A stretch of 36,555 nt of DNA from Nitrospinaceae bacterium (lineage in GTDB: Bacteria > Nitrospinota > Nitrospinia > Nitrospinales > Nitrospinaceae), in assembly GCA_029261395.1 (NCBI GenBank), contig JAJDBJ010000031.1:1-36555 (forward strand), written 5' to 3'. This document shows, one piece after another, positions 1 to 19,499 of the stretch. The notes under the pieces were generated by a model, which saw only the letters and a program-made list of their open reading frames with translations, had not been told where the DNA came from and searched no databases. Every line of letters begins with the position of its first letter. The stretch's first letter is position 1. A program made the position numbers and the translations under genes.

Positions 1-3000
1 CCATCGATTCCCGGCAGGCCCACGTCCAGAATAATAGCTGTCGGTTGTTTTTCTTCCGCAAGCTCAAGGCCCATCTCCCCGTCCCCCGCCACTATGGGAT
101 CAAAACCCTTCCTTTTGGCCGTTTCAGAAACAATTTTTGAAAAACGGGGATCATCTTCAATGATTAAAATGGATGGAGAAACCGACCGCTTGCGGGACTT
201 GCCCTGTGATTGCGGCTGGGGTCTTGGAAACTTCACGCGGTCCTCTTGTGTTTCCGGGGTAAAAAGTTTTTCAGGAAGGTAAACCGTAAATGTACTCCCC
301 ACACCATCCTCGCTTGACAATTCAATTTCTCCACCCAGAAGACGGGCCAGCTCTTTTGAAATCGAAAGCCCCAGTCCGGTGCCGCCGTATTCCCGGCTGG
401 TAGTGCCGTCTTCCTGCCGGAAGGCTCCAAATATCTGACCCTGTTTCTCTTGAGAAATCCCTTTGCCGGTATCTGAAACGGAAATCCCGATAACATTTTG
501 ATTGTTTAACTCCGCCCGGGAAAATTGCGCCCCGGATTCGACCGGATGGAATTTGAGGGTGATACCGCCTTCTTTAGTAAACTTGAACGCATTGGACAGA
601 AAGTTTTTAATAATCTGTTCCACCCGTTGGGAATCCGTCCGGATATGAGACGGCATTTCCGCGCTGATTTCTGTTTTAAACTCCAGCCCCTTTAGTTCCG
701 CCATGGATAGGAACATTTTCTCCAAAGAACCGGCCAGGTCGGCAAGGCTCACCTCTTCCACATGAAGCTCCATTTGGCCGGCTTCCACCTTGGACAGGTC
801 TAATATGTCATCAATCAGGCTTAGAAGATCTGAGCCCGCACCATGGATCGTTTGGGCAAATTCGACCTGTGTTTCGGTAAGATTTTTTTGTTTATTCCCA
901 GCCAGTAATTGGGACAATATCAGCAGGCTGTTGAGCGGGGTTCTCAATTCATGCGACATGTTGGCCAGGAACTCTGACTTATATCGACCTGAGACTGCCA
1001 ATTCCTCTTTTTGTTGTTCCAGATCATGCGCCTGCTCTTTGAGGTGTTGATTGGTTTGCCGCAGTTCTTCCTCTGTCTGCTCCAATTCCTCTTTTTGTGA
1101 AATCAGCTCTTCCGATTGCACCTGGGTTTTTGCAAGCAGTTCAGCCGCTTGTTTACGGACTATCGCGGAATTTAAGGCGATTGCGATACCCTCTCCAGCT
1201 CGATTTAAAAACTCCCATTGCCGGTCGCTGAGTGGATTAAAGGATCCCAACTCCACCACTCCCATCACAATATCCTCATGTAAAAAGGGAATAATCATGA
1301 GATGGGTGGGCACAGCGTCACCCAATCCGGAAATCACCCGGATATAGTCCTCGGGAACATTATTGATCACAATGCTTTTCTTTTCCAGGGCCGCCTGCCC
1401 CACCGGACCTTCTCCGATCTTGAATTCCTTTGAAGTATTTTTCTTCGGGGTAAAGGAAAAACCGGCTGTCATCTTCAAACTATCGGACTCGGCCAGGTAG
1501 ACCGCGCCAATATGCGCTTCCAAACTTTCAGCCAGAACGTTAATGATATTTTGAGCCAACTCAACACTATCCTGGTCGCCACGTATTTTGTCATTCAAGG
1601 TCGCAAGATGGGTTTTTAACCAGTTCTGTTCTTCCAGATCCTGGTTGATCCTGGCAATTTTTTCCTCCGACCGTTTCCGCTCAGTGATATCGCGGCAGAT
1701 TCCGACATACATCATCTTGCCGCCCGCCTTCATCTCGTTAACAGCCAGGTCCAGGGGAAAGACGCTCCCGTCCTTGCGTTGGCCCATTACCTCGCGGCCG
1801 ATACCGATAATTTTGGCCTGCCCTGTTTCCTTATAATTTCCGAGGTACCCGTCATGTTCGTGGTGATAGGGCTCGGGCATCAGCATCTTGACATTCTTCC
1901 CGGACACCTCGGACGCGGCATAACCGAACGTACGCTCCGCCGCCGGATTAAAAACATCGATCATACCTAGATCGTCGATGGTGATCAGCGGATCGACCAC
2001 ACTTTCCAAAATAGCCCGAGTGCGCGCCTCCTCTGCCTGCAACGCCCACTCTGCCTGCTTGCGTTCGGTGATATCGCGACACACCCCGATATACATCGAC
2101 TTGCCGTCAATCTTTATCTCGTTAACGGACAGGTCTATGGGAAAGACGGAGCCATCCTTGCGTTGGCCCATCACCTCGCGGCCGATACCGATGATTTTGG
2201 CCTGCCCCGTCCGTTTGTAATTTCCCAGGTATCCGTCATGTTCGCTGTGATAGGGCTCGGGCATCAGCATATTGACATTTTTCCCGATCACCTCGGATGC
2301 AGAATAGCCGAACGTGCGCTCCGCCGACGGATTAAAGGATTCGATTACACCCTGACTGTCTATCGAGATTAGCGGGTCCACCATGTGATTTATAAGGGAG
2401 AAGTTCCGGGCTTCCTTTTCTTGCAAATCCGCGATCAATCCAAAGACCATTTCATTAAAGTTATGCGTCAAGATTCCAATTTCGTCTTTGGCGCCTCCTC
2501 GCAGTCTTTCCTGTTTCAGGTCGCCTGCAACAACTTTCCTGGAAAATTCGGTGATTCTTCGCAAAGGTCTGGTGATCGAAAAAGTAACAGGCAGGGCTAT
2601 AAGAAAACCAATGATGGTACTCACAGTGAGCGTAGCCCAGAAGATATTGACCCCCATATTTGAGAGTCTTTTCACCTCATCCAGATCAAATTGCAGTAAT
2701 ACCTGTTGGTTCTCGGACATTTCGCTGAGTAGAGTATTAATGGCAGAGGCGGTGGGCGCGGCTTTTTCCGACAAAATTTTATTGGCGAACGCAAGTTGTG
2801 AGCTTCTTGAAAGAGTTTCAATTTCAATTTGGTATTTTCTGAACTTCTCCAGCTTTTCATTGATGTCCCGAAACCGCTCGACGTTTTCAGGGTTGGTCCA
2901 TCTCGCTGAAAGTTTTCTCAGGGCCTCTGCAGACGAATCAATTTCTACTAGCCAGGCCTGCCGCCGTTCCTGTTTAAACTGGTCCTCACCCAACAACAGC

Positions 3001-3221
3001 CAGCCCCGCAAAGCGGCCAATGAGTGGTTTACCCCATTGAGCATCATGAGGCTATTTCGCGCGGTAGGGACCCGCAAACTCTCTACCCGGTCGTTCAAAG
3101 ATTTAGTCTGCTGGAATATATTTAAAATGAACAGGATGCTGGCAAAGAAGACCAGACCTATTCCAAAAAACCCCAATCCAATTTTCACACCCACTCTTAA
3201 GTTTTTTAACCCACTGAACAT
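1..3221 (-). CDS. Membrane hybrid histidine kinase (4HB-HAMP-PAS-PAS-GAF-HisKA-HATPase-REC), 3' end beyond window
   Basis: Multi-sensor hybrid histidine kinase, open at the left edge; about 1073 residues are visible. Order: TM1 (about 11-32), four-helix-bundle-like periplasmic region, TM2 (about 187-211), HAMP, PAS1 (about 275-385), PAS2 (about 403-513), GAF (about 530-680), coiled coil, HisKA with phospho-His757 in MSHELRTP, HATPase (NFLSNAFKF, DTGKGI, GGTGLGLS), then a REC domain (IIEDD; Asp in ILDVGLPGIDG) cut by the edge. PAS1 and PAS2 keep FixL-like His328 and His456 plus the IIGIGR arginine. The ATG at 3221 follows AGAGG by 6 nt and an in-frame TAG lies just upstream. The N-terminal half is a paralogue of the 572-residue protein at 13349-15067; the GAF-to-REC half is a paralogue of the kinase at 6046-11052. 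Family assignment is firm; heme binding is inferred. Confidence 0.93.
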   Translation of the reverse strand, partial: MFSGLKNLRVGVKIGLGFFGIGLVFFASILFILNIFQQTKSLNDRVESLRVPTARNSLMMLNGVNHSLAALRGWLLLGEDQFKQERRQAWLVEIDSSAEALRKLSARWTNPENVERFRDINEKLEKFRKYQIEIETLSRSSQLAFANKILSEKAAPTASAINTLLSEMSENQQVLLQFDLDEVKRLSNMGVNIFWATLTVSTIIGFLIALPVTFSITRPLRRITEFSRKVVAGDLKQERLRGGAKDEIGILTHNFNEMVFGLIADLQEKEARNFSLINHMVDPLISIDSQGVIESFNPSAERTFGYSASEVIGKNVNMLMPEPYHSEHDGYLGNYKRTGQAKIIGIGREVMGQRKDGSVFPIDLSVNEIKIDGKSMYIGVCRDITERKQAEWALQAEEARTRAILESVVDPLITIDDLGMIDVFNPAAERTFGYAASEVSGKNVKMLMPEPYHHEHDGYLGNYKETGQAKIIGIGREVMGQRKDGSVFPLDLAVNEMKAGGKMMYVGICRDITERKRSEEKIARINQDLEEQNWLKTHLATLNDKIRGDQDSVELAQNIINVLAESLEAHIGAVYLAESDSLKMTAGFSFTPKKNTSKEFKIGEGPVGQAALEKKSIVINNVPEDYIRVISGLGDAVPTHLMIIPFLHEDIVMGVVELGSFNPLSDRQWEFLNRAGEGIAIALNSAIVRKQAAELLAKTQVQSEELISQKEELEQTEEELRQTNQHLKEQAHDLEQQKEELAVSGRYKSEFLANMSHELRTPLNSLLILSQLLAGNKQKNLTETQVEFAQTIHGAGSDLLSLIDDILDLSKVEAGQMELHVEEVSLADLAGSLEKMFLSMAELKGLEFKTEISAEMPSHIRTDSQRVEQIIKNFLSNAFKFTKEGGITLKFHPVESGAQFSRAELNNQNVIGISVSDTGKGISQEKQGQIFGAFRQEDGTTSREYGGTGLGLSISKELARLLGGEIELSSEDGVGSTFTVYLPEKLFTPETQEDRVKFPRPQPQSQGKSRKRSVSPSILIIEDDPRFSKIVSETAKRKGFDPIVAGDGEMGLELAEEKQPTAIILDVGLPGID
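1681..2386 (-). repeat. Tandem duplicated PAS-coding unit (384-nt period)
   Basis: Two consecutive PAS-coding units, 1681-2002 and 2065-2386, align base for base with a constant offset of 384 nt (128 residues) and are mostly identical by eye. The predicted heme-ligand His codons (1854-1856 and 2238-2240) are 384 nt apart. Further copies of the unit occur once each in the genes at 6046-11052 (about 9200-9525), 11233-13092 (about 11798-12120) and 13349-15067 (about 13910-14225), making a five-copy coding repeat family in the locus. Confidence 0.85.
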
Positions 3222-3417
3222 ATTTAACCTCTGCTAGTTAGATTATTGCATCAGAGACGTATTTCTATTGGTATAACAGAATGGAAGGCGAGTACTTTAG
3301 ACATTGAACTTAAACTCAGGTGATCCGCCAGCCCTTGCGGCCAGGTAATCCGGCAAAACGTTAATTCAATAAATTAGGTACACTTGGCAGGAAACTTTTT
3401 TCTACCCCTTCTCTATC

Positions 3418-3772: not shown

Positions 3773-4528
3773 TCAAACCATCTTAATGGTTTCCAAGAGA
3801 TCTAAAGTTCCTGAAAAATCGCCTTCCTTGATTAATTCTGAAAGGCGCAACTCCAGAAGTTTTCCTTTTTCAATTAAAGCGCTCAGGCTAGCTAGCTGTT
3901 TTTCCAGCTCAGAGATATCACCTTTTTCAATACTTTCTACAAATCCCATAAACATTTGAGTAGGAATGGCTATTTCAGAAAAATTATCCCCAGCGGTATC
4001 CAAAAACAATTCATTTTTATGCGTATTTTTTTCATAAATTGTTTGCGCTTGCTTGCGAATATCAATTTCATGGTTCGCTTCTTCTACCTTCTTTTTTAAC
4101 TCCGCAACCCGAGTACTGACAAGAGCTTTCTGCTTATAAAGCTCAAGGAAAACACCGACTTTACTTTTTAATATTTTGGGGTCCACCGGTTTAAATAGAA
4201 AGTCCACCGCCCCGGCCTCGTATCCTTTAAATTTATATTCCTCTTTCTCATTTAACGCAGTTATAAAGATAACAGGAAGATATTTGGATTTTTTAATTCC
4301 CCGTATTAATTCTGCCACTTCAAAGCCGTTCATTACTGGCATTTGGACATCCAAGAGGGCTAAGGCAAAATCATGCTTTAAAATCAACTGCAGACCTGCT
4401 TCGCCGGAAGTGACCGAGTAAATATCACATTCAAAATCATCCAATACAGCTTCCAGAGCCAAAAGGTTTGCCTGTTTGTCGTCAATGGCGAGGATTTTAG
4501 GTCTTATCTTTTTATTTATTTTTGGCAT
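3773..4528 (-). CDS. Receiver-domain protein with coiled-coil C-terminus
   Basis: A 251-residue soluble protein. An N-terminal REC domain (about 8-125; AIDD acidic pair, phospho-Asp in LLDVQMPVMNG, KPVDP at the conserved Lys) is followed by a helical, charged tail without an enzymatic output. The REC is a close paralogue of the N-terminal REC of the hybrid kinase at 16566-19283 (shared INKKIRPKIL and KFKGYEAGAVDFLFKP). The tail ends with a segment resembling that kinase's extreme C-terminus. The ATG at 4528 is preferred because AGG lies 7 nt upstream; a TTG two codons earlier has no proper ribosome site. It follows cheB by 34 nt, so it is probably co-transcribed with cheR-cheB and may be a phosphate acceptor or adaptor. 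The function is inferred. Confidence 0.85.
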   Translation of the reverse strand: MPKINKKIRPKILAIDDKQANLLALEAVLDDFECDIYSVTSGEAGLQLILKHDFALALLDVQMPVMNGFEVAELIRGIKKSKYLPVIFITALNEKEEYKFKGYEAGAVDFLFKPVDPKILKSKVGVFLELYKQKALVSTRVAELKKKVEEANHEIDIRKQAQTIYEKNTHKNELFLDTAGDNFSEIAIPTQMFMGFVESIEKGDISELEKQLASLSALIEKGKLLELRLSELIKEGDFSGTLDLLETIKMV

Positions 4529-4562
4529 AAACAAACCTAAAAAGGTGAGTAATAATTATTTG

Positions 4563-5156
4563 TTAAAGAGTAGCTGAGCCCTTATCCAAATCCTTGAGAA
4601 ACCGGCCAATCTGTTCCGGGCTATATAGATAATCAATATTAGTTGTTTCCATAGCCGATCGAATCATGGTTTCCCCGTCAGCTTTTAACGGGTTTTGCAC
4701 AATGGTAAGGCCTCCTTTTGCCTTAATTTTCATCAAGCCATCACTCCCATCCCTGGAAGCTCCAGACAAAATAATTCCGATGAGCTTTTTCCCAAAGCAA
4801 TCGGCGGCGGTTTCAAATAATTCATCAATAGAAGGCCTTGCATAGTTTGTCATGTCCGAAGTGGAAAGGCAAATTGTCTTGTCTTTATCAACCAACATAT
4901 GGTAATCGGCTGGAGCCAGAAATACCTTACCCGCGACAAAGGGATCTCTATCGTTGGGTTCATAAATTTTCAATGCCATTTCAGGAGAACCCAAAGCTTT
5001 ATGGAACTCAACGCCACCGCTACTCCTGTGGAGAGCAACGGCGATCGGTATTGAAAAATCAGAGGGCAAGGCCGAAAGAATTGCACAAAGAGGGGAGATA
5101 GAGCCCGCCGAACCCCCAATCACTATTCCTTCAAAACCACTGGTCGATACATTCAT
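4563..5156 (-). CDS. cheB: CheB-type protein-glutamate methylesterase domain, no receiver
   Basis: A 197-residue protein formed only of the CheB methylesterase/deamidase domain. The Ser-His-Asp triad is visible: Ser16 in IGGSAGS, His43 in VALHRSSG and Asp136 in LSGASRDGSDG. Classical CheB is about 350 residues with an N-terminal receiver that gates the esterase; that receiver is absent, so control must come from elsewhere, for example the REC protein encoded 34 nt downstream. It starts 19 nt after cheR. No cheA, cheW or methyl-accepting chemoreceptor is encoded in the window, so the substrate is unknown. CheB/CheR domains fused to or beside multi-sensor kinases are known in other bacteria. 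The domain call is firm; the target is open. Confidence 0.9.
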   Translation of the reverse strand: MNVSTSGFEGIVIGGSAGSISPLCAILSALPSDFSIPIAVALHRSSGGVEFHKALGSPEMALKIYEPNDRDPFVAGKVFLAPADYHMLVDKDKTICLSTSDMTNYARPSIDELFETAADCFGKKLIGIILSGASRDGSDGLMKIKAKGGLTIVQNPLKADGETMIRSAMETTNIDYLYSPEQIGRFLKDLDKGSATL

Positions 5157-5175
5157 ATGATCTCTGAATCTCTCT

Positions 5176-6045
5176 TCATTTTACCATCCTATTGAATGAT
5201 TCAGATGGAACTTTTCGGTAAATCTTTCCATCCCTATTAAGATACTTGAAGTGTTCTTTATTGGCGCTCCTCATAATGCTTTCCCTCAACCCCATACAAA
5301 GAAAACCATGCTTCTGAAGGCTGTCATAAAACAGCTTAATCACACGCCTTGTCAAAACTTCATTAAAATAAATCAAGACATTGCGACATAGAATCACATG
5401 AGCTTCAACAAAGGTTTCATCCACGGCTAAATTGTGATCAATAAACAGAATATTTTTTTTAAGCTTCTTATCCATTATGAAATCCATGTCTTGAACAGAA
5501 ATATATTCTGAAAAGGATTTCTTACCTCCCGATTTAAGATAATTTTCGGAGCATGTCGATAAATTCCTGCTCAAATACTTTCCACCCTTTGCAATTTCCA
5601 AAGCCTTGATATTTATATCTGTCGCATAGATCTGGGTTTTTTCGTATAAATTTTCCTCTTCAAGCAATATCGCCATGGAGTAGACTTCCTCGCCTGTGGC
5701 GCATCCCGCATGCCAGATTTTTAAGGACGGATATGTTCTCAAAAAGGGAACCACATCATTGCGAAACGCCTTATAAAAAGAAGGGTCTCTAAAGTGCTCC
5801 GTCACGTTTATTGAAAATTTGGGTAATATGCTTTTAAAAAACAGTTCATCCCAAATCATTTTATGCTGTAATTCTGAAATATTTCCCAAATTTTGATCCT
5901 TTACCATTTTCAAAATTTGTCTTTTCACTGACAATCGGGAATAACTCCTGAAATCGGAACCATATTTCAAAAAAATTGCTTCGAGCAATAGCCTGACTTC
6001 GATATCCTCACTATCATTTTCATTATCCAAATGCATATTATCCAC
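5176..6045 (-). CDS. cheR: CheR-type SAM-dependent protein-glutamate methyltransferase
   Basis: About 289 residues, typical for CheR. The N-terminal helical domain is followed by a Rossmann-type SAM-binding core with the motif WHAGCATGEEVYS, an acidic TDIN segment and the late motif CRNVLIYFN. It should transfer methyl groups from SAM to receptor glutamates. It begins with GTG directly after the TGA of the 1668-residue kinase (stop at 6046-6048), preceded by GGGGGA, which implies translational coupling to the kinase. An ATG three codons in (6036) is an alternative start. No MCP is encoded in the window, so the methylated partner is unknown; HAMP-containing sensors of this locus are candidates by inference only. 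Confidence 0.92.
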   Translation of the reverse strand: MDNMHLDNENDSEDIEVRLLLEAIFLKYGSDFRSYSRLSVKRQILKMVKDQNLGNISELQHKMIWDELFFKSILPKFSINVTEHFRDPSFYKAFRNDVVPFLRTYPSLKIWHAGCATGEEVYSMAILLEEENLYEKTQIYATDINIKALEIAKGGKYLSRNLSTCSENYLKSGGKKSFSEYISVQDMDFIMDKKLKKNILFIDHNLAVDETFVEAHVILCRNVLIYFNEVLTRRVIKLFYDSLQKHGFLCMGLRESIMRSANKEHFKYLNRDGKIYRKVPSESFNRMVK

Positions 6046-9000
6046 TCATCCCCCTAAGCCTGTTTTTTTAAACAAAATACTCATCTGAGCGAATAGTTTA
6101 TTTTGATCAACGGGCTTCGCGAGGTAATCGCTGGCTCCAGCATTGAGACACTTTTCCTTGTCAGTTTTCATGGCTTTTGCAGTAATGGCAATAATAGGGA
6201 TATCCCTGAAGTTTTTATCTTTTCTTATTTTCCGGATCGCCGTATAACCGTCCATTTCCGGCATCATGATATCCATCAAAATTAAATCGGTGTCCGGGTT
6301 GGACTTAAGAATATCTATGGCTTCCCGACCGTTCCGGGCGACTATCACGTCGGCCTCTTTTTCTTCCAATAAATGAGTTAGGGCAAAAACATTTCGCATG
6401 TCATCATCGGTCAAAAGAACCTTTTTCCCCTGAAAATTATAAACTTCATCCTCAACTGGAGTGGGATCGGGCTCCATGACCTCTTGCTCCGAATAATCCC
6501 TTTCTTCCAAAGAGTCCGTTTCCTCCAAAAACTGTTTTGCGCCGTAGAGATATGCATTGATTTCATCCAAAAGTCTTTCAGGGGATCTCGCTCCCTTAAC
6601 AATGATGCTTTTGGAAAAGCCCGCCAGCTCTTCTTCCTGGCTTTGGGTAAGACTCATTGCCGTATAAATAATCACCGGCACTTTAGGCAGGGTTTCATCG
6701 ATTTTAATTTCATGCAGAAGATCAAATCCAGACTTATCCCCTAAACCCAAATCCAAAGTCATGCAATCGACCTCATGTTTTCTTAATACCTGAATGGCTT
6801 CATCCACCGTTGCCGCACTCAAAAAGTTGACGTTCTCACTATCCAGAAGTCCAATAATACTTTTCCTCATATCCTCATCATCTTCGACCACCAAAATTTG
6901 TTTGATCTTCTTTTTCAAAAGGCCGACTACTTCTGTAAAAATGCTCTCAATTTTTTCCATATCAACCGGTTTCTTTAAAAAACCAGTGGCACCCTTTGTT
7001 AAAGCTTCCTTGGCTTTTTCGTGATTCGCTGAAATGAAATAAACCGGAACGCCCCGAGTCGCGGCATTGGCCTGTAGTTGTCTCATCACCTCCAGGCCAT
7101 CGATTCCCGGCAGGCCCTCGTCCAGAATAATAGCGGTGGGTTGTTTTTTTTCCGCAAGCTCAAGGCCCAGTTCCCCGTCCCCCGCCACTATGGTATCAAA
7201 ACCCTTCCTTTTGGCCGCGTCAGAAACGATTTTTGCAAAACGAGGGTCATCCTCAATAACTAAAATGGATTGAAAGACCGGCTCACTGGGGTGCCTGGCC
7301 TGTGATTTCGGCAGGGGCACTGGAACCTTTACGCGGTCTTCTTCTGTTTCCAGTGTAGAATGTTTTTCAGGAAGGTAAACCGTAAATGCACTCCCCATTC
7401 CTTCCTCGCTTGATAATTGAATCTCTCCACCCAGAAGACGGACCAGCTCTTTTGAAATCGATAGCCCCAGTCCGGTGCCGCCGTATTTCCGGCTGGTGGT
7501 GCCGTCTTCCTGCCGGAAAGCTTCAAATATCTGATCCTGTTGTTTCCTGGTAATTCCCTTGCCGGTATCTGAAACGGAAATCCCAATAACATTTTGGTTA
7601 TTTAACCCTGCCCGGGAAAAAGGAACCTGCGATTCGACCGGATGGAATTTAAGGGTGACGTTTCCTTCTTCAGTAAACTTGAACGCATTGGACAAGAAGT
7701 TTTTGAGAATTTGTTCCGCCCGTTGGAAATCCGTCTGGATATAAGATGGCATTTCCGCGCTGATTTGTGTTTTAAACTCCAACCCCTTTTGTTTCGCCAC
7801 AGGCAGAAACGTTTTTTCTAAAGAAGCGGACAGGGCGGTAAGGCTCACTTCTTCCACATGGATTTCCATTTTACCGGCTTCCACCTTGGACAGGTCTAAT
7901 ATGTCATTAATCAGATCTAGAAGGTCCGCACCCGAGCTATGGATCGTTTGGGCAAATTCGACCTGTTTTTCGGTGAGATTATTTCGTTTATTTTCAGCCA
8001 GCAATTGGGACAATATCAGCATGCTGTTGAGCGGGGTTCTCAATTCATGCGACATGTTGGCTAGAAACTCCGATTTATATTTATTGGCAACTTTCAATTC
8101 CTGCATTTTGATTTTTAACAGACCGCCTTTTTTCTCGACCTCACCTTTTTGCTGTACCAGATCACGCGTCTGCTCTTCGAGGTATTGATTGGATTGCCGC
8201 AGTTCCTCCTCTATCTGCTCCATCTCCTCCCTTTGTGCAATCAGCTCTTCCGACTGCGCCTGGGTTTCTGAAAGCAGTCCAGTCATTTGTTTACGGGCCA
8301 GTGCGGAATTTAAGGCGATTGCGATACCCTCTCCAGCTTGATTTAAAAACTCCCATTGCCGGTCGCTGAATGGGCTAAAGGACCCCAACTCCGCCACTCC
8401 CATCACAATATCTTCATGTAAAAAGGGAATAATCATGATATGGGTGGGCACAGCGTCACCCAACCCGGAAGTCACCCGGAGATGGTCTTTAGGAACATCA
8501 CTGATCACAATACTTTGCTTTTCCAGGACCGCCTGCCCCACCAGGCCTTCTCCAATCTCGAATGTTTTTGAAACATTTTCCTGATGGGCAAAGCCTGCTG
8601 TCATCTTCAATTTATCCGACTCGACCAGGTAGACCGAGCCAATGCGCACTTCCAAAATTTCAGCCAGAACGTTAATGATATTTTGAGCCAACTCAACACT
8701 GTCCTGGTCACCGAGCATTTTGTTATTCAAAGATGCAACCTGGGTTTTTACCCAGTTCTGACGTTCCAGATCCTGGTTGATCCTGGCAATTTTTTCCTCC
8801 GCCTGCTTGCGCTCGGTGATATCCTGTGCGATGCCGGCAAACCGGAAAATGTCTCCTGAATCGTTTCGCACCGGCAAGCCCTCCGCATGAATCCAGCGGA
8901 TCGACCCATCAGGGCGGATGATTCGATAATCCAAATCAAAATTGCCCGCCGCCAAATCCTCAAAATTGAACAGCCCCAAAACCCGGTCGCTGTCTTCAGG

Positions 9001-11052
9001 GTGAAGGGAGGGACCCCAGTCCATGATATTATTCATCAAGTCTTCACAGGATCTGCCCCATACCGTTTCATACGCGTCGCTGATGTAAATCATTTCAGTG
9101 ACCTCCGCATTGATGATCCAGAAGACCTCATGAATATTTTTCGCCAGCTGGTTAAACTTTTCTTCGCTGTCCCGCAATCTCTGCTCGGCCTGCCTGCGCT
9201 CGGTGATATCCCGGCAGGTACCGATAAACATTGTCTTATCCCCCACCTTCATCTCGTTAACAGCCAGGTCCAGAGGAAAGACGCTTCCGTCCTTGCGCTT
9301 ACCCGCCACCTCTCGGCCACTACCGATGATTTTGGCCTGCCCTGTTGCTCTGTAGTTTCCGAGGTATCCGTCATGTTCGCTGTGATAGGGCTCCGGCATC
9401 AGCAGATTGACATTCTTCCCGATCACCTCGGATCTGGAATAACCGAAGGTGCGCTCCGCCGCCGGGTTAAAATCCTCGATCCTACCCTGATCGTTGATCG
9501 TAATCAGAGGATCAACCATATTCACCAAAATACTTTGAGCGCGCGCATCCAGGCTGTTATAGGCATCCTGCAGTGCCGCCTCGGCCATTTCAGCTTTTAA
9601 GGTGCGGTCTTTGTTTTTTTGAACGAGTTGAGCCAACTGGGCTAAAAGAAAGGATGCAAAAACTCCAAAAACAAGGACAACAGTGGGGGTCATCGACCCA
9701 TGGGCCTTCAACCATTGGGGTTTGGGCAGAGCAACAATTCTCCAGGAATTGCCATGAAATGTGATAGGAGTAGAAAAAAGCCATCGATTGCCTTTGCCCT
9801 CCGGTAAAAAATCAAAGTTACCGGAAGTATTCGCCTCCACCAATACCAGGTCAATTCCTTCAGCCTTTTGTTTCGTTGTCAAACTGCTTAATAGCCGATC
9901 AGGGTCCACTACCTTATGAATGAAACCCTGAAATTGGCCCGCATGAAATATAGGGGCCGTGATAAAAAATCCTTTGCCCCCCTGTACCAATTTGCGGGTA
10001 CTGCTGACTACTATCTTTTTTTCATTCCGGGCTCGCATCAGGTTGGCCCCCAGGCCCTCTATTTTGGACAGATCCAATCCTTCTGCGGCTTCATTGCCTT
10101 CCAGTGGGGCAACCCAGCGGATTCGAAAATCAGCATCCACCCATTCGAGCGCCCTGACACTAAAATGATGTTCAACATGGAGACCTGCGTCGGACAGCCA
10201 TTCCTCTTTCGCCGGGGCTCCTCCCACTTCCCAGCGTTTGGTCAGGCGTGTAACGCCCTGGGTTAACGACTCCAGAGTGGAAATAAACTGGCTCTTGATA
10301 TGGAGAGTATTTGTTTTTATTTCTTTTTTAATTGCTCTTACTTCATCCGTTACTACCGCCTGCCATAGAAGCAGAGTAATAGTCAGGGCACCCATCCCGA
10401 CAAGGATGGGTGCCCATTTTGGAGTTTTATTTTCGCTGGCAATATCGGCTTTCCAGGCAAGTAGAACTATTCCCAGCCCTATCAAGATAAATTCTGAAGC
10501 AGTGTGCACTGCCATCCGTGTCAGGTTGCTCCAACCGTAGGCGGTTTCCATGCTAATTAAATAACCGCCAAACGCCGCCAGTCCCAAAGCAAAAACAAGT
10601 CCTCCAATAATCGCTATTGCTATGGAATGTTTTTGGAGTTCATTTCCCTTGCCCAAAATTAAAAAGGAAATGCCGGTTAGAAGAAAACAAAACGCCGTAT
10701 TCGGAGCCATGCGGCCCGGATGAGATGTTTCAACAGTGATATAAGCATCCATCAGGAGCTGGTCGATGCCAAAGTCCACTCCAAACATATATTGAATCAG
10801 GGTCATACTTCCCAGCAACGCAAGGAATCCGCTCGTAATTCTGGTAATCCAGGTCTTGGACCCGTAAGCGGCTATGAGTCCAGCCCCACCAAAAATAAAA
10901 CCAAGAGCGGTGTTGTACTGCATGGGCGCAAAGCTGGGATGGACCTGAATCAGGATGGGGATATGCGCATACCATCCAAAGATAACCATCCCACCCAGCA
11001 ATAAAGAGCTGAAGCCGAGGAAAGGAATGATTATATAAGTGGAAAATTTCAT
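6046..11052 (-). CDS. Large membrane multi-sensor hybrid histidine kinase (7TM-CHASE-like-PAS-PAS-GAF-HK-REC-REC-REC)
   Basis: A 1668-residue kinase. Residues about 1-225 hold roughly seven membrane helices. A large extracytoplasmic CHASE-like segment (about 225-460) and a further TM helix follow, then a FixL-like PAS (about 510-625, His560, IIGSGR), a second unrelated PAS with PAC (about 640-760), GAF, coiled coil, HisKA (His1002), HATPase (NFLSNAFKF, DTGKGI, GGTGLGLS) and three receivers (acceptor Asp in ILDEGLPGIDG, in TLDLGLGDKSG, and Asp1594 in LMDIMMPEMDG). The ATG at 11052 is chosen over an upstream TTG (11091) because CCAGG precedes it and it begins the first TM helix. From the GAF onward it is nearly the same as the left-edge kinase. 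cheR follows without a gap. No HPt domain is present; the one in the kinase at 16566-19283 could serve as relay (inference). Confidence 0.93.
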   Translation of the reverse strand: MKFSTYIIIPFLGFSSLLLGGMVIFGWYAHIPILIQVHPSFAPMQYNTALGFIFGGAGLIAAYGSKTWITRITSGFLALLGSMTLIQYMFGVDFGIDQLLMDAYITVETSHPGRMAPNTAFCFLLTGISFLILGKGNELQKHSIAIAIIGGLVFALGLAAFGGYLISMETAYGWSNLTRMAVHTASEFILIGLGIVLLAWKADIASENKTPKWAPILVGMGALTITLLLWQAVVTDEVRAIKKEIKTNTLHIKSQFISTLESLTQGVTRLTKRWEVGGAPAKEEWLSDAGLHVEHHFSVRALEWVDADFRIRWVAPLEGNEAAEGLDLSKIEGLGANLMRARNEKKIVVSSTRKLVQGGKGFFITAPIFHAGQFQGFIHKVVDPDRLLSSLTTKQKAEGIDLVLVEANTSGNFDFLPEGKGNRWLFSTPITFHGNSWRIVALPKPQWLKAHGSMTPTVVLVFGVFASFLLAQLAQLVQKNKDRTLKAEMAEAALQDAYNSLDARAQSILVNMVDPLITINDQGRIEDFNPAAERTFGYSRSEVIGKNVNLLMPEPYHSEHDGYLGNYRATGQAKIIGSGREVAGKRKDGSVFPLDLAVNEMKVGDKTMFIGTCRDITERRQAEQRLRDSEEKFNQLAKNIHEVFWIINAEVTEMIYISDAYETVWGRSCEDLMNNIMDWGPSLHPEDSDRVLGLFNFEDLAAGNFDLDYRIIRPDGSIRWIHAEGLPVRNDSGDIFRFAGIAQDITERKQAEEKIARINQDLERQNWVKTQVASLNNKMLGDQDSVELAQNIINVLAEILEVRIGSVYLVESDKLKMTAGFAHQENVSKTFEIGEGLVGQAVLEKQSIVISDVPKDHLRVTSGLGDAVPTHIMIIPFLHEDIVMGVAELGSFSPFSDRQWEFLNQAGEGIAIALNSALARKQMTGLLSETQAQSEELIAQREEMEQIEEELRQSNQYLEEQTRDLVQQKGEVEKKGGLLKIKMQELKVANKYKSEFLANMSHELRTPLNSMLILSQLLAENKRNNLTEKQVEFAQTIHSSGADLLDLINDILDLSKVEAGKMEIHVEEVSLTALSASLEKTFLPVAKQKGLEFKTQISAEMPSYIQTDFQRAEQILKNFLSNAFKFTEEGNVTLKFHPVESQVPFSRAGLNNQNVIGISVSDTGKGITRKQQDQIFEAFRQEDGTTSRKYGGTGLGLSISKELVRLLGGEIQLSSEEGMGSAFTVYLPEKHSTLETEEDRVKVPVPLPKSQARHPSEPVFQSILVIEDDPRFAKIVSDAAKRKGFDTIVAGDGELGLELAEKKQPTAIILDEGLPGIDGLEVMRQLQANAATRGVPVYFISANHEKAKEALTKGATGFLKKPVDMEKIESIFTEVVGLLKKKIKQILVVEDDEDMRKSIIGLLDSENVNFLSAATVDEAIQVLRKHEVDCMTLDLGLGDKSGFDLLHEIKIDETLPKVPVIIYTAMSLTQSQEEELAGFSKSIIVKGARSPERLLDEINAYLYGAKQFLEETDSLEERDYSEQEVMEPDPTPVEDEVYNFQGKKVLLTDDDMRNVFALTHLLEEKEADVIVARNGREAIDILKSNPDTDLILMDIMMPEMDGYTAIRKIRKDKNFRDIPIIAITAKAMKTDKEKCLNAGASDYLAKPVDQNKLFAQMSILFKKTGLGG

Positions 11053-11116
11053 AATTTTTTTACCTGGTATTCTTAGCCTGCGGTTGCGCAAGACAGGCTT
11101 TGGCTTTTTTTGCTAA

Positions 11117-12135
11117 GTGGTTCCATTCGGGTGATACCGTACGTGAATGCCGCTCAATTCTTTTGGGATCTTTGCCGGCCCCTTCCCATTCCTCCGCCTT
11201 CTATTCAAAAGCTGGGTTCTCTTTCGCTAATCTTATTTTTTGGATTCCAGTAATTCCGCCAAACGGGCCCTGGCCCGGGAAGAATTAAGATTGATCGCTA
11301 TGGCTTCCACCGCCTGGTTTAAAAATTCCCTATGATCTTGCTGGATTTCATCCAGGGAGGCTAGCTCCAGAACCCCGATCACTTCCTCTTCAAATACAAT
11401 AGGGGTTACCAGCAGGTTCCTGAGCGGGACATCGACCAAACCGGATTGGACCCGGATATAATCATCCGGGAGATCCCTGACCAGAATACTTTTCTTTTCC
11501 AGCGCGGCCTGGCTCACCAGCCCTCCCCCTTTCTGATAGTGATCGGAGAGTTTCATTCCCTGGTGATAGGCATAACCGGCGGCAAACCGCATTTCTCCAT
11601 TCTCAGATAAATAGACGGCCCCGACCTGCATGTTTAAGCGGTCGGCGAGGTAGTTGATGATATTTTGCGACAAGGCGGCCTCGTCCTGATCCCCCCGCAT
11701 CGTGTTGTGCAGTTCCGAAAAACCGGTCTTGAGCCAATACTGTTTTTCTAAAGTCGACCGGCTGTCTGCCAACTCCTGCACCGCCTTTTTCCGTTCGCTG
11801 ATATCGCGGCAGGTACCGACATACATTGTTCTGTCCCCCACCTTTATCTTGTTAACGGCCAGGTCCAGAGGAAAGATGCTTCCATCCCTGCGTTTACCCA
11901 CCACCTCGCGGCCGATACCGATGATTTTAGCCTGCCCTGTTTCCCTGTAATTCCTGATGTACCCATCGTGTTCGCTGTGATAGGGCTCGGGCATCAGCAT
12001 CTTGACATTCTTGCCGATTGCCTCGGACGTCGAATAACCGAACGTGCGCTCCGCCGCCGGATTGAAGGATTCGATCATGCCCTGATCGTCGATCGTGATC
12101 AGAGGATCGGCCACACTTTGAAATATGGCGTTGAA
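11117..12135 (-). repeat. Duplicated PAS-GAF-plus-3' block, copy A
   Basis: This block contains the PAS and GAF codons, stop and about 115 nt of 3' non-coding DNA of the gene at 11233-13092. It matches 13234-14235 closely with few gaps. In the non-coding part both copies keep CCATTCGGGTGATACCGTAC and GAATGCCGCTCAATTCTTTT. Similarity stops just past the non-coding segment and at the upstream edge of the PAS, where the two proteins switch to unrelated membrane regions. Confidence 0.75.
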
Positions 12136-13092
12136 CTCTTTTGATCTTTCTTCAAGTATTTTATTTTTTTCTTTTTTCAACTCACCCAAAGCTTGCGCTT
12201 CCTGATATAAGCTCTTTACAAATTCCAACGCTAATCCTACAAATGGAACCAAATAGGAAAGAATCTTCAGGAAATGGGCTACATTAAAAGCGTTGTCAAA
12301 AAGAGCGCTGGAGCCAAAGGCCATGTAAAGCTGAGTGGATATGTTCGGAATACAACTGATCACAATGGCATGGGAGAAAAAACTGCGATCCTGTTGATAA
12401 TATTTGGGGAAAATGAAAATAAAACCAATGATGTAAAGAACGAGCGGGGCCACATCCCAGGGCCGTGTCACAAGCGATTGAGGGAAAAGTGTTTCTGGAA
12501 GTTGATTGCTGGTGGCGCAATAAGTAATCAGCGCATAGGCCAGAAAGCCGAAGAGCAAGCTCATTCCCAGGACAAAAGACAAACTCCCTTTAAATTTCCG
12601 TGTTTGGTTGGATAATAATAATCCCGCGCCAATAATCAAAATAATGGCATTAAATACCCGGCTGACAGCCCAGGTAAATGGGATAAGGTTTTGATGATCC
12701 GCGGTGGCCTCAATCAGCCGGTCGGCGACCAGCGTGTGAAAGGCATCCATGCACCCGGCACAAAAAAGGGCCATGCCAATAATGGGAATGGAGACGTTGC
12801 GATTCACATAAAATAAACAAAAACTTAAAATAACGGTAAAAATTGCCGAACAAAAAGCGCTCCATTCCAGAATGGTATGGGTAAAGCTTCCCGAAAGAGA
12901 CTCAAATAATGAATCGATCAATTGCTGGGGCGCCAACCCCACAGAAGCGGCAGGATCAAAAGGACGTTCTTCAGAACCAAAATCGATTCCGAAAAGATTC
13001 AGGATAAAGGGGGCAATACAAATTGCGACCACAGTTAAAATTACCGGAGTGGGCAATTTATCTCTATGTAAAAAATTAGGCGCCTCAGCCAT
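11233..13092 (-). CDS. 7TM MASE-like membrane sensor with FixL-like PAS and GAF, no output domain
   Basis: A 619-residue protein. The first ~295 residues contain about seven to eight hydrophobic helices resembling the MASE3/MASE4 class of membrane sensor domains (GCMDAFHTLVA; VAHFLKILSYLVPFVG). A PAS follows (about 320-435; His375 in SEHDGY, Arg in IIGIGRE), then a GAF domain (about 450-605). The protein ends in LAELLESKK, just where its kinase relatives enter the coiled coil before HisKA, so it has sensing modules but no kinase, cyclase or DNA-binding domain. The ATG at 13092 follows GAGGAG by 5-6 nt. It lies between the other kinase-less sensor (13349-15067) and the large kinase (11052), with about 180 nt to the latter. 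It may hetero-dimerise with a full kinase through matching PAS-GAF surfaces (inference). Confidence 0.88.
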   Translation of the reverse strand: MAEAPNFLHRDKLPTPVILTVVAICIAPFILNLFGIDFGSEERPFDPAASVGLAPQQLIDSLFESLSGSFTHTILEWSAFCSAIFTVILSFCLFYVNRNVSIPIIGMALFCAGCMDAFHTLVADRLIEATADHQNLIPFTWAVSRVFNAIILIIGAGLLLSNQTRKFKGSLSFVLGMSLLFGFLAYALITYCATSNQLPETLFPQSLVTRPWDVAPLVLYIIGFIFIFPKYYQQDRSFFSHAIVISCIPNISTQLYMAFGSSALFDNAFNVAHFLKILSYLVPFVGLALEFVKSLYQEAQALGELKKEKNKILEERSKEFNAIFQSVADPLITIDDQGMIESFNPAAERTFGYSTSEAIGKNVKMLMPEPYHSEHDGYIRNYRETGQAKIIGIGREVVGKRRDGSIFPLDLAVNKIKVGDRTMYVGTCRDISERKKAVQELADSRSTLEKQYWLKTGFSELHNTMRGDQDEAALSQNIINYLADRLNMQVGAVYLSENGEMRFAAGYAYHQGMKLSDHYQKGGGLVSQAALEKKSILVRDLPDDYIRVQSGLVDVPLRNLLVTPIVFEEEVIGVLELASLDEIQQDHREFLNQAVEAIAINLNSSRARARLAELLESKK

Positions 13093-13233
13093 TTTTACTC
13101 CTCAGGATTTCTGATTTTCAGCCGTTTGCTTCCGGGAGATAATGAAACTCATCCAAGGAACAATCCAATGCTGAATTCATTTCGATTGGATCAAATAACC
13201 TATGCGTTAGCAGAGCGAAAGGTTTCTTTCCCG

Positions 13234-14235
13234 GTGGTCCCATTCGGGTGATACCGTACAGGAATGCCGCTCAATTCTTTTTGGGCCCTTGCCGGCCCTT
13301 GCCATTCCGCAACCTTCTATTTAATGATTGGACTCTCTTTCGCTAATCTTATTTTTTGGATTCCAGCAATTCCTCCAAACGGGTTCTGGACCGGGAAGAA
13401 TGAAGATTGATCGCTATGGCTTCCACGGCCTGGTTTAAAAACTCCCTATGATCTTGCTGGATTTCATCCAGGGAGGCCAGTTCCAGGACTCCGATCACTT
13501 CCTCTTCAAATATAATAGGGATTACCAGAAGATTTCTGGGCGAGGCATCGATAAAACCGGATTGGATCCGGATACTATCGTCCGGGAGATCCTTGATCAG
13601 GATACTTTTCTTTTCCAGAGCGGCCTGCCCCACCGGGCCTTCCCCTTTCTGATAGTGTTTGGTATTTTTCATTCCCTGGTTAAAGGCATAACCGGCGGTA
13701 AACCGCATTTCCCCATTTTCAGATAAATAGATGGCCCCGATCAGCACGTTTAACCGGCCAGCGAGGTAGTTGATGATATTTTGCGACAAGGTGTCCTCGC
13801 CCTGCTCCCCCCGCATCATGTCGTGCAGTTCCGCAAGACCGGTCTTGAGCCAATTTTGTTTTTCTAAAGTCACCCGGCTGTCTACCAACTCCTGTACCGC
13901 ATTTTTTCGTTCGGTGATATCGCGACAAATACTGACATACATCGTTTTGTCCCCCACCTTGATCTCGTTAACAGCAATCTCCATAGGAAAGACGGTACCG
14001 TCCTTGCGCTTCCCTGTCACCTCGCGGCCAGTACCGATGACTTTAGCCTGCCCCGTTTCCCTGTAATTCCTGATGTACCCATCGTGTTCGCTCTGATAGG
14101 GTTCAGGCATCAGCATCTTGACATTCTTCCCCATTACCTCCGACGCCGAATAGCCGAACACCTTCACCGCCGCCGGGTTGAATATTTCGATGAGCCCCTG
14201 ATCATTTATCTCTATCAATGGGTCCATGATGTTAT
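13234..14235 (-). repeat. Duplicated PAS-GAF-plus-3' block, copy B
   Basis: Partner of the block at 11117-12135. It spans the PAS and GAF codons and 3' flank of the gene at 13349-15067. The conserved non-coding flank (about 13234-13348) carries the same CCATTCGGGTGATACCGTAC string, showing that the duplication extended past the stop codon or has been maintained by gene conversion. Confidence 0.75.
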
Positions 14236-15067
14236 ATAGAAGAGCGAAATTCCTGGCTTCCTTTTCCTGCAAATCCGTGATCAACCCAAAGGCCATTTCA
14301 TTAAAGTTGTGCGTCAAGATCCCAATTTCGTCTTCGGAGTCTCTTTGCAATCTTTCCTGGTTCAGATTCCCAGCCGCAACTCCCATGGAAAATTCGGTGA
14401 TCCTTCGCAAGGGCCGGGTGATCGAAAAAGTAATGGCCATGGCGATAAGAAAACCAAGAGAGACACTCACAAACAGAGTTGCCCAGAGCAAACTCATCCC
14501 CCTGCTGGAGAGCCTTTTCGACTCCTCCAGATCAAATCGCAGTAATACTTGTTGGTTCTCGGCCATTTCGCTGAGTAGCGTATTAATGGCAGAGGCGGTG
14601 GTCGCGGCCGTCTCCGACAAGTTTTTATTGGCCAACGGAAGCTGTGAATTTCTTGAAAGGCTTTCAATTTCTTGCTGGTAGGCTCTTAACTCTTTCAACT
14701 TTTCTTTTATGGTCCGAAACCGCTCTACGTTTTTAGGGTTGGTCCAGTGCTCGGAAAGTTCATTCAGGATCTTTTCAGCCGAATCTATATCTTTCGACCA
14801 GGCCTGTTGGCGTTCCTGTTTAAAATGCTCTTCACCCAACAACAGCCATCCCCGCAAAGCGGCCAATGAGCGGTTTACCCCGTTGAGCATCTTGAAGCTA
14901 TTTTGCGCGGTAGGGGTCCGCAATTCCATCACCCGGTCGCGTAGCTCCTCGGTCTGGTTGAGTAAATTAAAAACGAACAGGATGTTGGCAAAAAAGATCA
15001 AACCGATGACCACAAACCCTAATCCGATTTTTTCACCGACTCTTAAGTTTTTTAACTTACCAAGCAT
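13349..15067 (-). CDS. 4HB-HAMP-PAS-GAF membrane sensor without output domain
   Basis: A 572-residue protein with TM1 (about 11-32), a four-helix-bundle-like periplasmic region (about 33-185), TM2 (about 187-211), HAMP (about 212-265), a FixL-like PAS (about 275-385; His328 in SEHDGY, Arg in VIGTGRE) and GAF (about 400-560), ending LEELLESKK. There is no MCP signalling hairpin and no kinase. Its N-terminal half, ribosome site (AAAGG, 6 nt before ATG 15067) and upstream DNA are paralogous to the left-edge kinase, which carries a second PAS and a full kinase. Its C-terminal half matches the neighbour at 11233-13092. It could act as a regulatory partner of a kinase, or be a truncated derivative. 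Domain calls are firm; the role is open. Confidence 0.88.
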   Translation of the reverse strand: MLGKLKNLRVGEKIGLGFVVIGLIFFANILFVFNLLNQTEELRDRVMELRTPTAQNSFKMLNGVNRSLAALRGWLLLGEEHFKQERQQAWSKDIDSAEKILNELSEHWTNPKNVERFRTIKEKLKELRAYQQEIESLSRNSQLPLANKNLSETAATTASAINTLLSEMAENQQVLLRFDLEESKRLSSRGMSLLWATLFVSVSLGFLIAMAITFSITRPLRRITEFSMGVAAGNLNQERLQRDSEDEIGILTHNFNEMAFGLITDLQEKEARNFALLYNIMDPLIEINDQGLIEIFNPAAVKVFGYSASEVMGKNVKMLMPEPYQSEHDGYIRNYRETGQAKVIGTGREVTGKRKDGTVFPMEIAVNEIKVGDKTMYVSICRDITERKNAVQELVDSRVTLEKQNWLKTGLAELHDMMRGEQGEDTLSQNIINYLAGRLNVLIGAIYLSENGEMRFTAGYAFNQGMKNTKHYQKGEGPVGQAALEKKSILIKDLPDDSIRIQSGFIDASPRNLLVIPIIFEEEVIGVLELASLDEIQQDHREFLNQAVEAIAINLHSSRSRTRLEELLESKK

Positions 15068-15292
15068 ATTTAACCTTTGTTAGTTCGGGCCGGTCACTGT
15101 TTCAGGATGGGATTGAAGGTTTCGATCATCCCCGCGGCGGTGATCCTAGTCATCACATCCACGGTGTTATTCCCGATAGTTTTCCAGATGAATTGCCGGA
15201 ACCTTGCGGCCAGGAAATTCGCAACAATGCCAATTCAAAAAACCACTTTCTTCGGCATACCAAATAGAAAACCGCGTAACCCCCCTTATATC

Positions 15293-16565: not shown

Positions 16566-19283
16566 TTACTCTTCATGGTTAGATTTAAACTGCAACTTTT
16601 CCGTAAGTTTTCCAATCAATTCCAATGCTCCATCAAACTCATAATTATGAATCATCTTTTTTAATTCTGTTAACTGAGAGCGATACGCTTCGACTCCCGC
16701 CAGACCTGGCATCGATGCCACCAAATCCAGCGCCATCGTATCGCTTCTAATCAGCAACTGAGCCAGATCTTGCAACCGTACTGCAAGCTCCGTGGTATCG
16801 ACTTTCACTTCCGTACCATTAGTTTTATTCTGCGCTTCGAGATACTTCTTAAGGTTGAATATAACTGTCGAAAGAGCCTCATCAACTTTATCAAGTCTAA
16901 CTTCGACCTCCGTTTCCGGCCTCTGCTCATGACATACCTTTTCTAATTCGTGGGCCGTCTCTTGTACCTTTCTTGCGCCGATGTTGCCAGCGACACCCTT
17001 CAAGGTATGAGCGAAACGCTCCAGCGCTCTCATATCCCCGTCTTGATGTACGGCCCAGAACCGCTCAACAAAATCTTTCTGGCCGTCATAGAACATGCCC
17101 AGCAATCGGCGATACAGCGTCTTGTTATCCTGCGCGATGATAAGCCCCAATTTAACATCGATACCCTCGAGTTCCGGTAACTCCAGCTCTCCTTCTTTAA
17201 CTGGGGGCCTTAATTTACCTGTCTGCTCTTTATTGATTGAGCCACCCGGTTTGATCCATTTAGCCATGATGGCATACAGGTTTTGCACATCGATGGGTTT
17301 AACTACATAGTCGTTCATTCCCGCTTTCTGGGTAGCCTTACGGTCTTTGTCCATGGCATTTGCCGTCATAGCTATAATGGGGAGTGTTTTGAATTTCTTT
17401 TGTTTACGAATTTCGCAAGTTGCCGTCAGACCATCCATTTCCGGCATCTGCACATCCATGAGCACTCCATCGAAAGTCTCGGTTTGCAACATCTCCAATG
17501 CCTCTTGGCCGTTATTGGCCACTTGTACCAGAGCGTCGATGCCTTTTAGAAGTTCCAGCGCAAGCTCCTGGTTGATGGCGTTGTCCTCCACTAAAAGAAT
17601 GCGGACACCAGTGATCTGCTTGATATGATCAGATTCCGAAATTGATTTTTCGGTCGGCTGGGCCTTCGGTTTTTGACTCTGAAAGAGCGAAAGAATGGCG
17701 TTGAACAAATCAGAATGGGATACGGGCTTAGTCAAAAAAGGCCCACTCCAGCTTACTCCTGCACTTTTTTCGACTTCCCCCCGACTTCTGCCGGAGACAA
17801 TAATTATTTTTGGTTTTTTTGTTAAATCGGGATCTTCCTGGATTTTTTGCGCCAGATCGGTGCCTTTCATATCGGGGAGCTGCCAATCCAAAATAGCCAA
17901 GTCGTAGGCTTTTCCTTCTTTTCCAGCCTGTTCTATCTCGTGTAAAGCCTGCTCGGAATCCGTACAACTGGTTACCTGGAACTTTTTTATTTTCAGCAGA
18001 CGCTCCATAATTTTGAGTGCAGGGAGGTTATCGTCTACCGATAGGACGCGCAAACCCTCCAATTCGGGAGGAACAAGGTTTTCCGGATTTGATTTTTCGG
18101 CAACCTTGAATCGTGCTGTAAAGTGAAAAGTGCTCCCCTTATCCAGCTTGCTATCTACCCAAAGGCGGCCGTCCATCATTTCTACCAACCGTTTACAAAT
18201 AGACAGTCCCAGACCGGTCCCTCCATATTTTCGTGTAGTGGATGGATCCGCCTGTGTAAATGGGTGAAACAATTTGGAAGCCTGTTGTTCGGACAAACCA
18301 ATCCCGGTATCTTGAATGGAGAAACGAAGAATGACATCGGTACCCATTTTCTTTTCTATTTTGACAGTCATCACCACCTCTCCCCGTTTGGTGAACTTGA
18401 TGGCGTTACTCAATAGATTTAAAATAACCTGACCGAGTCGCAGGGGATCCCCAATCAAGTTTTGAGGTACATTTGGCTCGATATAAAAGAGCAACTCAAG
18501 CCCCTTGTCTTGGCACTTGAGGGCTTCTTGGTTGGCCATGTCTCCTAATATGGATTCCAGAGCGAACTCCACCTTTTCCAAGCTGAGTTTGCCGGCTTCA
18601 ATTTTGGAGAAATCAAGAATATCGTCAATGATGGCCAGCAGGTTGTCCGAGGAATATTGGATTTTTTTCAGAAAATCGGATTGTTTGGAGTTCAACTGAG
18701 TTTTCAGAGCCAGTTTTGTAAAGCCCATAATAGCGTTCATGGGGGTCCGGATTTCGTGACTCATGATTGACAAAAAGTCCGACTTGGTCTGGTTTGCCTC
18801 TTCCGCGGCCTTTTTGGCATACCCCAAAGCTTTAACCTTTTCTTCAAGTTCAAGCTTTTGGTTTTCAATAATTTGCTTACTACGATAAAGATCAAGAAAA
18901 ATACGGACTTTGCTTTTTAGAATTTTTGGGTCCAGCGGTTTGAATAGAAAATCCACCGCTCCAGCCTCGTATCCCTTGAACTTATATTCCTGTTTCTCAT
19001 TTAATGCGGTTACAAAGATAATAGGAAGGTTTTGGGATTTTTTGATGCCCCGTATCAGTTCCACTACTTCAAAGCCGTTCATATCGGGCATTTGAACGTC
19101 CACCAGGGCCAGAGCAAACTCATGCTCTATGACCAACTTTAAACCTGCATGCCCGGAAGTGGCTGAGTGCAAGTCACAATCAAAATCAAAATCATCAAAC
19201 ACGGCTTCCATAGCCAAGAGGTTTGCCCTCTTGTCGTCAATGACGAGAATTTTAGGTCTTATCTTTTTATTCACCTTTGACAC
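16566..19283 (-). CDS. Soluble hybrid histidine kinase REC-HisKA-HATPase-REC-REC-HPt
   Basis: About 905 residues with no membrane segment. Order: REC1 (about 8-125; KFKGYEAGAVDFLFKP), coiled coil, HisKA (His176 in IMSHEIRTPMN), HATPase (NLLSNAIKF, DTGIGL, GGTGLGLS), REC2 (LSVDD; LDWQLPDMKG), REC3 (LVEDN; LMDVQMPEMDG) and an HPt domain with phospho-His in FAHTLKGVAGN. It therefore holds a complete BarA/ArcB-like phosphorelay and takes its input through a receiver rather than a sensor domain. The start is uncertain: TTG at 19286 and GTG at 19283 are both possible with no strong ribosome site. GTG aligns with the ATG of the paralogous REC protein at 4528 and is used here. The next gene is the HD-GYP regulator. 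Confidence 0.92.
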   Translation of the reverse strand: MSKVNKKIRPKILVIDDKRANLLAMEAVFDDFDFDCDLHSATSGHAGLKLVIEHEFALALVDVQMPDMNGFEVVELIRGIKKSQNLPIIFVTALNEKQEYKFKGYEAGAVDFLFKPLDPKILKSKVRIFLDLYRSKQIIENQKLELEEKVKALGYAKKAAEEANQTKSDFLSIMSHEIRTPMNAIMGFTKLALKTQLNSKQSDFLKKIQYSSDNLLAIIDDILDFSKIEAGKLSLEKVEFALESILGDMANQEALKCQDKGLELLFYIEPNVPQNLIGDPLRLGQVILNLLSNAIKFTKRGEVVMTVKIEKKMGTDVILRFSIQDTGIGLSEQQASKLFHPFTQADPSTTRKYGGTGLGLSICKRLVEMMDGRLWVDSKLDKGSTFHFTARFKVAEKSNPENLVPPELEGLRVLSVDDNLPALKIMERLLKIKKFQVTSCTDSEQALHEIEQAGKEGKAYDLAILDWQLPDMKGTDLAQKIQEDPDLTKKPKIIIVSGRSRGEVEKSAGVSWSGPFLTKPVSHSDLFNAILSLFQSQKPKAQPTEKSISESDHIKQITGVRILLVEDNAINQELALELLKGIDALVQVANNGQEALEMLQTETFDGVLMDVQMPEMDGLTATCEIRKQKKFKTLPIIAMTANAMDKDRKATQKAGMNDYVVKPIDVQNLYAIMAKWIKPGGSINKEQTGKLRPPVKEGELELPELEGIDVKLGLIIAQDNKTLYRRLLGMFYDGQKDFVERFWAVHQDGDMRALERFAHTLKGVAGNIGARKVQETAHELEKVCHEQRPETEVEVRLDKVDEALSTVIFNLKKYLEAQNKTNGTEVKVDTTELAVRLQDLAQLLIRSDTMALDLVASMPGLAGVEAYRSQLTELKKMIHNYEFDGALELIGKLTEKLQFKSNHEE

Positions 19284-19499
19284 CAACTGTTTTAAAAAGT
19301 TTCAAGTCGTCGTTATAAGCTGAGTTCCTATCAGATTCACTGATAAACACCGCCCATCTGATCCGGATAATATAAAAAACGCTTTTGTTTTTCGCCTTTT
19401 ACGATCGAATTATAAAACCCTCATCCGATCATAAAGGGGTGCTGGGGAGTCAGCATACCCTACTAAAAAATATGGAATTTCCAGGCTATTGTTTATTCT

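Follow-up and report, generated by a model that had tools for sequence, protein, structure and literature searches.

Duplication and domain shuffling have been described as usual routes by which two-component genes evolve, for example in the myxobacteria (PMC4603909), while the discussion of that paper terms domain shuffling a rare event. The sensors described there resemble those of the locus examined here in being paralogues with common segments and different input halves. The locus differs from them, as far as that account describes them, in that the copied segment also brings 3' spacer DNA and that two of the products lack a kinase. It lies in the window, a stretch of 36,555 nucleotides that makes up a whole contig of a Nitrospinaceae bacterium (JAJDBJ010000031.1). 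Its sensor genes and the segments discussed below, with the tools by which they were delimited, are as follows.

3 to 3221, minus strand: gene g1, 4HB-HAMP-PAS-PAS-GAF-HisKA-HATPase-receiver, cut by the contig end, with segments in common with genes B and g5 (blastn, Pfam)
6046 to 11091, minus strand: gene g5, CHASE-PAS-PAS-GAF-HisKA-HATPase-three receivers, the downstream neighbour of gene A (blastn, Pfam)
11117 to 11232, minus strand: untranslated tail 3' of gene A, copy 1 (blastn self-match and alignment)
11233 to 13092, minus strand: gene A, 619 aa, MASE3-PAS-GAF (Pfam, translation)
11236 to 12087, minus strand: duplicated PAS-GAF coding segment of gene A (blastn self-match and alignment)
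13234 to 13348, minus strand: untranslated tail 3' of gene B, copy 2 (blastn self-match and alignment)
13349 to 15067, minus strand: gene B, 572 aa, 4HB_MCP-HAMP-PAS-GAF (Pfam, translation)
13352 to 14203, minus strand: duplicated PAS-GAF coding segment of gene B (blastn self-match and alignment)
13905 to 15085, minus strand: 4HB-HAMP-PAS segment of gene B, 78.8% identical to 2059-3239 of the histidine kinase gene g1 (blastn)

Two described systems come closest to the products of genes A and B. Over 117 residues the PAS domain of gene A matches FixL chains from solved structures (E 1e-32), and the alignment includes the histidine of the HDxY stretch, which we take to be the heme ligand. Judged from this similarity, the PAS domains of A and B are FixL-like and may bind heme. 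Unlike FixL, neither gene encodes a HisKA or HATPase kinase domain recognizable by Pfam, and their scores of 141.7 and 126.5 bits are far below the FixL equivalog cut-off of 850 bits. The second system is the family of MASE3 PAS histidine kinases (NCBIfam NF047874), whose profile is matched by residues 70-447 of gene A with 77.8 bits; however, this score is below the 560-bit cut-off, and the match ends with the PAS domain and includes no kinase.

The earlier note on this DNA had described a repeat of about 1 kb that takes in PAS, GAF and stop codon and continues for about 115 nt of 3' sequence, and a comparison of the window against itself confirms it: positions 11117-12087 and 13234-14203 are 85.8% identical over 971 columns with one gap opening (blastn, E 0). 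Read on the minus strand, the block covers the PAS-GAF end of the coding sequence with its stop codon and extends about 115 nt past it. The stop codons of the two genes align, and the likeness continues to 11117 and 13234, with 97 of the 115 aligned tail sites identical and one gap. The block ends sharply: identity in 60-nt windows drops from 0.88 to 0.42 at one end and from 0.73 to 0.47 at the other. With identity only 0.42 at 11120-11061 and 0.47 at 12140-12081, the limits fall at about 11117 and about 12087. The right ends given earlier, 12135 and 14235, had been set some 30-50 nt too far. Both strings quoted as identical do occur in each copy.

The tail was found at E ≤ 0.001 in only these two places of its own genome, and the seven further matches at E ≤ 10 are each 14-21 nt long. 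Because the genome holds only two copies, a dispersed genomic repeat is ruled out. Among the 77 genomes of the phylum that were searched the only positive was the bacterium's own, and none of the other 76 contains a copy. Decayed coding DNA of a kinase linker was likewise rejected as a source of the tail, as a tblastn comparison of nine proteins of the window with five spacers returned no match in 11092-11232. A pattern scan for terminators found none within the tail.

The tail is not detectably slower in its evolution than the neighboring silent sites. Differences are present at 18 of its 115 aligned sites, which corresponds to a Jukes-Cantor distance of 0.176 (95% interval 0.10-0.28), and the adjoining linker and GAF coding sequence has an NG86 dS of 0.201 (0.12-0.29), with changes at 10 of 56 fourfold sites (Fisher P 0.83 for 18/115 versus 10/56). 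Against all fourfold sites of the block, of which 22 of 90 are changed, P is 0.15. A tail that evolves like silent sites fits the prediction of a plain segmental duplication, and the recent duplication suggested in the earlier note is supported by the equality of flank divergence and synonymous divergence in the adjoining coding part. That note was also right that the untranslated DNA is about as alike as the coding DNA. Changes in the coding part are fairly frequent, with dN 0.122 below dS 0.281 over the whole block (NG86) and both reading frames unbroken, and equal likeness of the two kinds of DNA is expected from drift after a recent copying event. The differences are unevenly spread along the tail: with the gap counted, columns 1 to 70 hold 16 of them and the remaining 46 columns 3 (post hoc Fisher P 0.022). 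This unevenness counts against a reading of uniform drift.

We consider it likely that the PAS-GAF end of a sensor gene was copied together with about 115 nt of spacer, which has since drifted at the rate of silent sites, and that this was one of several segmental exchanges. The segment copied next to itself would have comprised the last part of a sensor gene, PAS-GAF with its stop codon, and the spacer following it; genes A and B would thereby have come to differ in their membrane sensor halves and to agree in their PAS-GAF ends. In this event the spacer would have been carried along passively. In the exchanges among the four paralogous sensor genes, of which this copying would be one, homologous recombination probably acted through the PAS repeats. 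A search of the 11 other genomes of the family yielded no orthologous locus, which counts against this reading as regards the direction and the date of the copying.

A contrast within the block bears on an alternative history. The PAS part has a dS of 0.47 (0.28-0.73), higher than the 0.20 (0.12-0.29) of linker and GAF, with the order reversed in 1 of 300 bootstraps; a single event followed by uniform drift does not predict this. If the duplication were older, and gene conversion between the two neighbors had afterwards homogenised the GAF end and the tail, this would account for the contrast and for the lower level of divergence in the tail. Nevertheless, a maximum chi-square test for a breakpoint, made on 213 same-residue codons with 38 silent differences, gave P 0.68, and in its silent sites the PAS of gene B stands far apart from all other PAS copies, so that the PAS may be the anomalous part of the block. 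We regard such a two-step history as unlikely. The gene conversion suggested in the earlier note, which would here have affected the GAF end together with the tail, is possible, and so is an exchange of the PAS.

Functional readings of the tail fare less well. The last 46 columns, the best-kept part, lie nearest to the next genes (gene A just downstream of the tail of B, and g5 just downstream of the tail of A). The distal tail could be a promoter or operator that serves the next gene and has been kept in both copies, and the duplication would then have placed a shared cis-regulatory site, these last 46 nt, before A and g5. The support is the same post hoc P value; however, no sigma-70-like site occurs on the minus strand within either tail, the overall divergence of the tail is neutral, and the distance from tail to next start is unequal between the two copies. 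Both the promoter or operator reading and that of a shared control element appear very improbable to us. That the tail holds a conserved RNA element, as the earlier note also suggested, or a structured 3' end is scarcely credible, even though it contains long identical strings and only 3 of the 19 differences fall in the last 46 columns. The longest identical run is 20 nt, an ordinary length (P 0.36), and the absence from the other genomes of the phylum also speaks against such an element. That flank and synonymous divergence are equal is the first half of what the earlier note had named as speaking against it. The other half, a lack of compensatory changes, has a divided answer: a two-sequence consensus fold has 27 pairs, in two of which both bases differ between the copies and still pair, but 18% of 500 column shuffles reach as many such pairs and 58% reach the consensus fold energy, in a test whose power is low since only two sequences exist. 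Folded singly, the two tails do no better than shuffles (z 0.00 and -0.56). Rfam returned no match at gathering score in the searched DNA, and a lax search gave four below-threshold matches, all to families of eukaryotes or viruses (E 1.9 to 9.5). The suggestion of an RNA element is thus left unsupported.

The likely reading, segmental copying with passive carriage of the spacer, places the A/B block in a mosaic. The four paralogous sensor genes of the cluster have PAS, GAF, kinase and 4HB/HAMP segments in common, and in the self-comparison by blastn the pairs are g1/g5 for GAF-kinase (about 86%), B/g1 for 4HB-HAMP-PAS (79%) and A/B for PAS-GAF-tail (86%). Changes at fourfold sites number 10 of 55 in the g1/g5 GAF, 16 of 87 in the g1/g5 kinase and 16 of 76 in the B/g1 4HB-HAMP, giving Jukes-Cantor distances of 0.21-0.25, close to that of the A/B GAF. 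PAS pairs are more diverged than these segments. So is a pair of REC segments (3773-4534 and 16566-19286; 16 of 38 fourfold sites changed), which is the older pair, so that not everything arose from one event. Five FixL-like PAS copies (1674-2005, 2059-2336, 9197-9532, 11788-12119 and 13905-14210) all retain an EHDGY stretch. Nucleotide and codon trees of these five copies disagree, and for this reason we claim no order of events; one large duplication of the cluster, followed by deletions through the PAS repeats, is possible. Collinear untranslated matches also occur upstream of g1 and B (34 nt at 85% and 41 nt at 78%), which reveals that the carrying along of spacer DNA is not peculiar to the 3' tail.

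Within the spacer upstream of gene B, 24 nt (15110-15133) are 91.7% identical to PAS coding DNA at 12059-12082; they lie near the point where the B spacer exceeds the g1 spacer in length and are perhaps a small inserted PAS fragment. CheR and CheB genes are located between the two large kinase genes (4563-6045, Pfam). The contig end falls inside the g1 kinase gene (1-3221), in sequence that is repeated at 7097-8080.

The genes A and B probably encode accessory sensors. Most likely both proteins act as sensors in the membrane, have no kinase output of their own and modulate the kinases of the cluster, perhaps through heterodimers or by competition for ligand. The best match of gene A in another genome of the family is partial and 40% identical. 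Among the MASE3 relatives, which include Nitrospina records, 6 of the 15 inspected (of 48 found) have a kinase-like C terminus as judged by eye. Of 22 GAF matches in the phylum's other genomes, 20 fall within open frames of at least 900 aa, and the frames of the other two have 597 and 563 aa; long forms thus prevail, and short ones may exist. Searching the literature for kinase-less PAS-GAF partners gave no paper that contained four or more of the five terms, a result that says little.

The duplicated tail is thus most simply explained as a leftover of a fairly recent duplication, and the locus by ordinary duplication and domain shuffling. Where untranslated DNA common to neighboring paralogues diverges as silent sites do, no function need be invoked to explain it. 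Domain shuffling among sensor genes is seen at this locus in compact form, with FixL-like PAS repeats that link varied membrane inputs to GAF ends or kinases.
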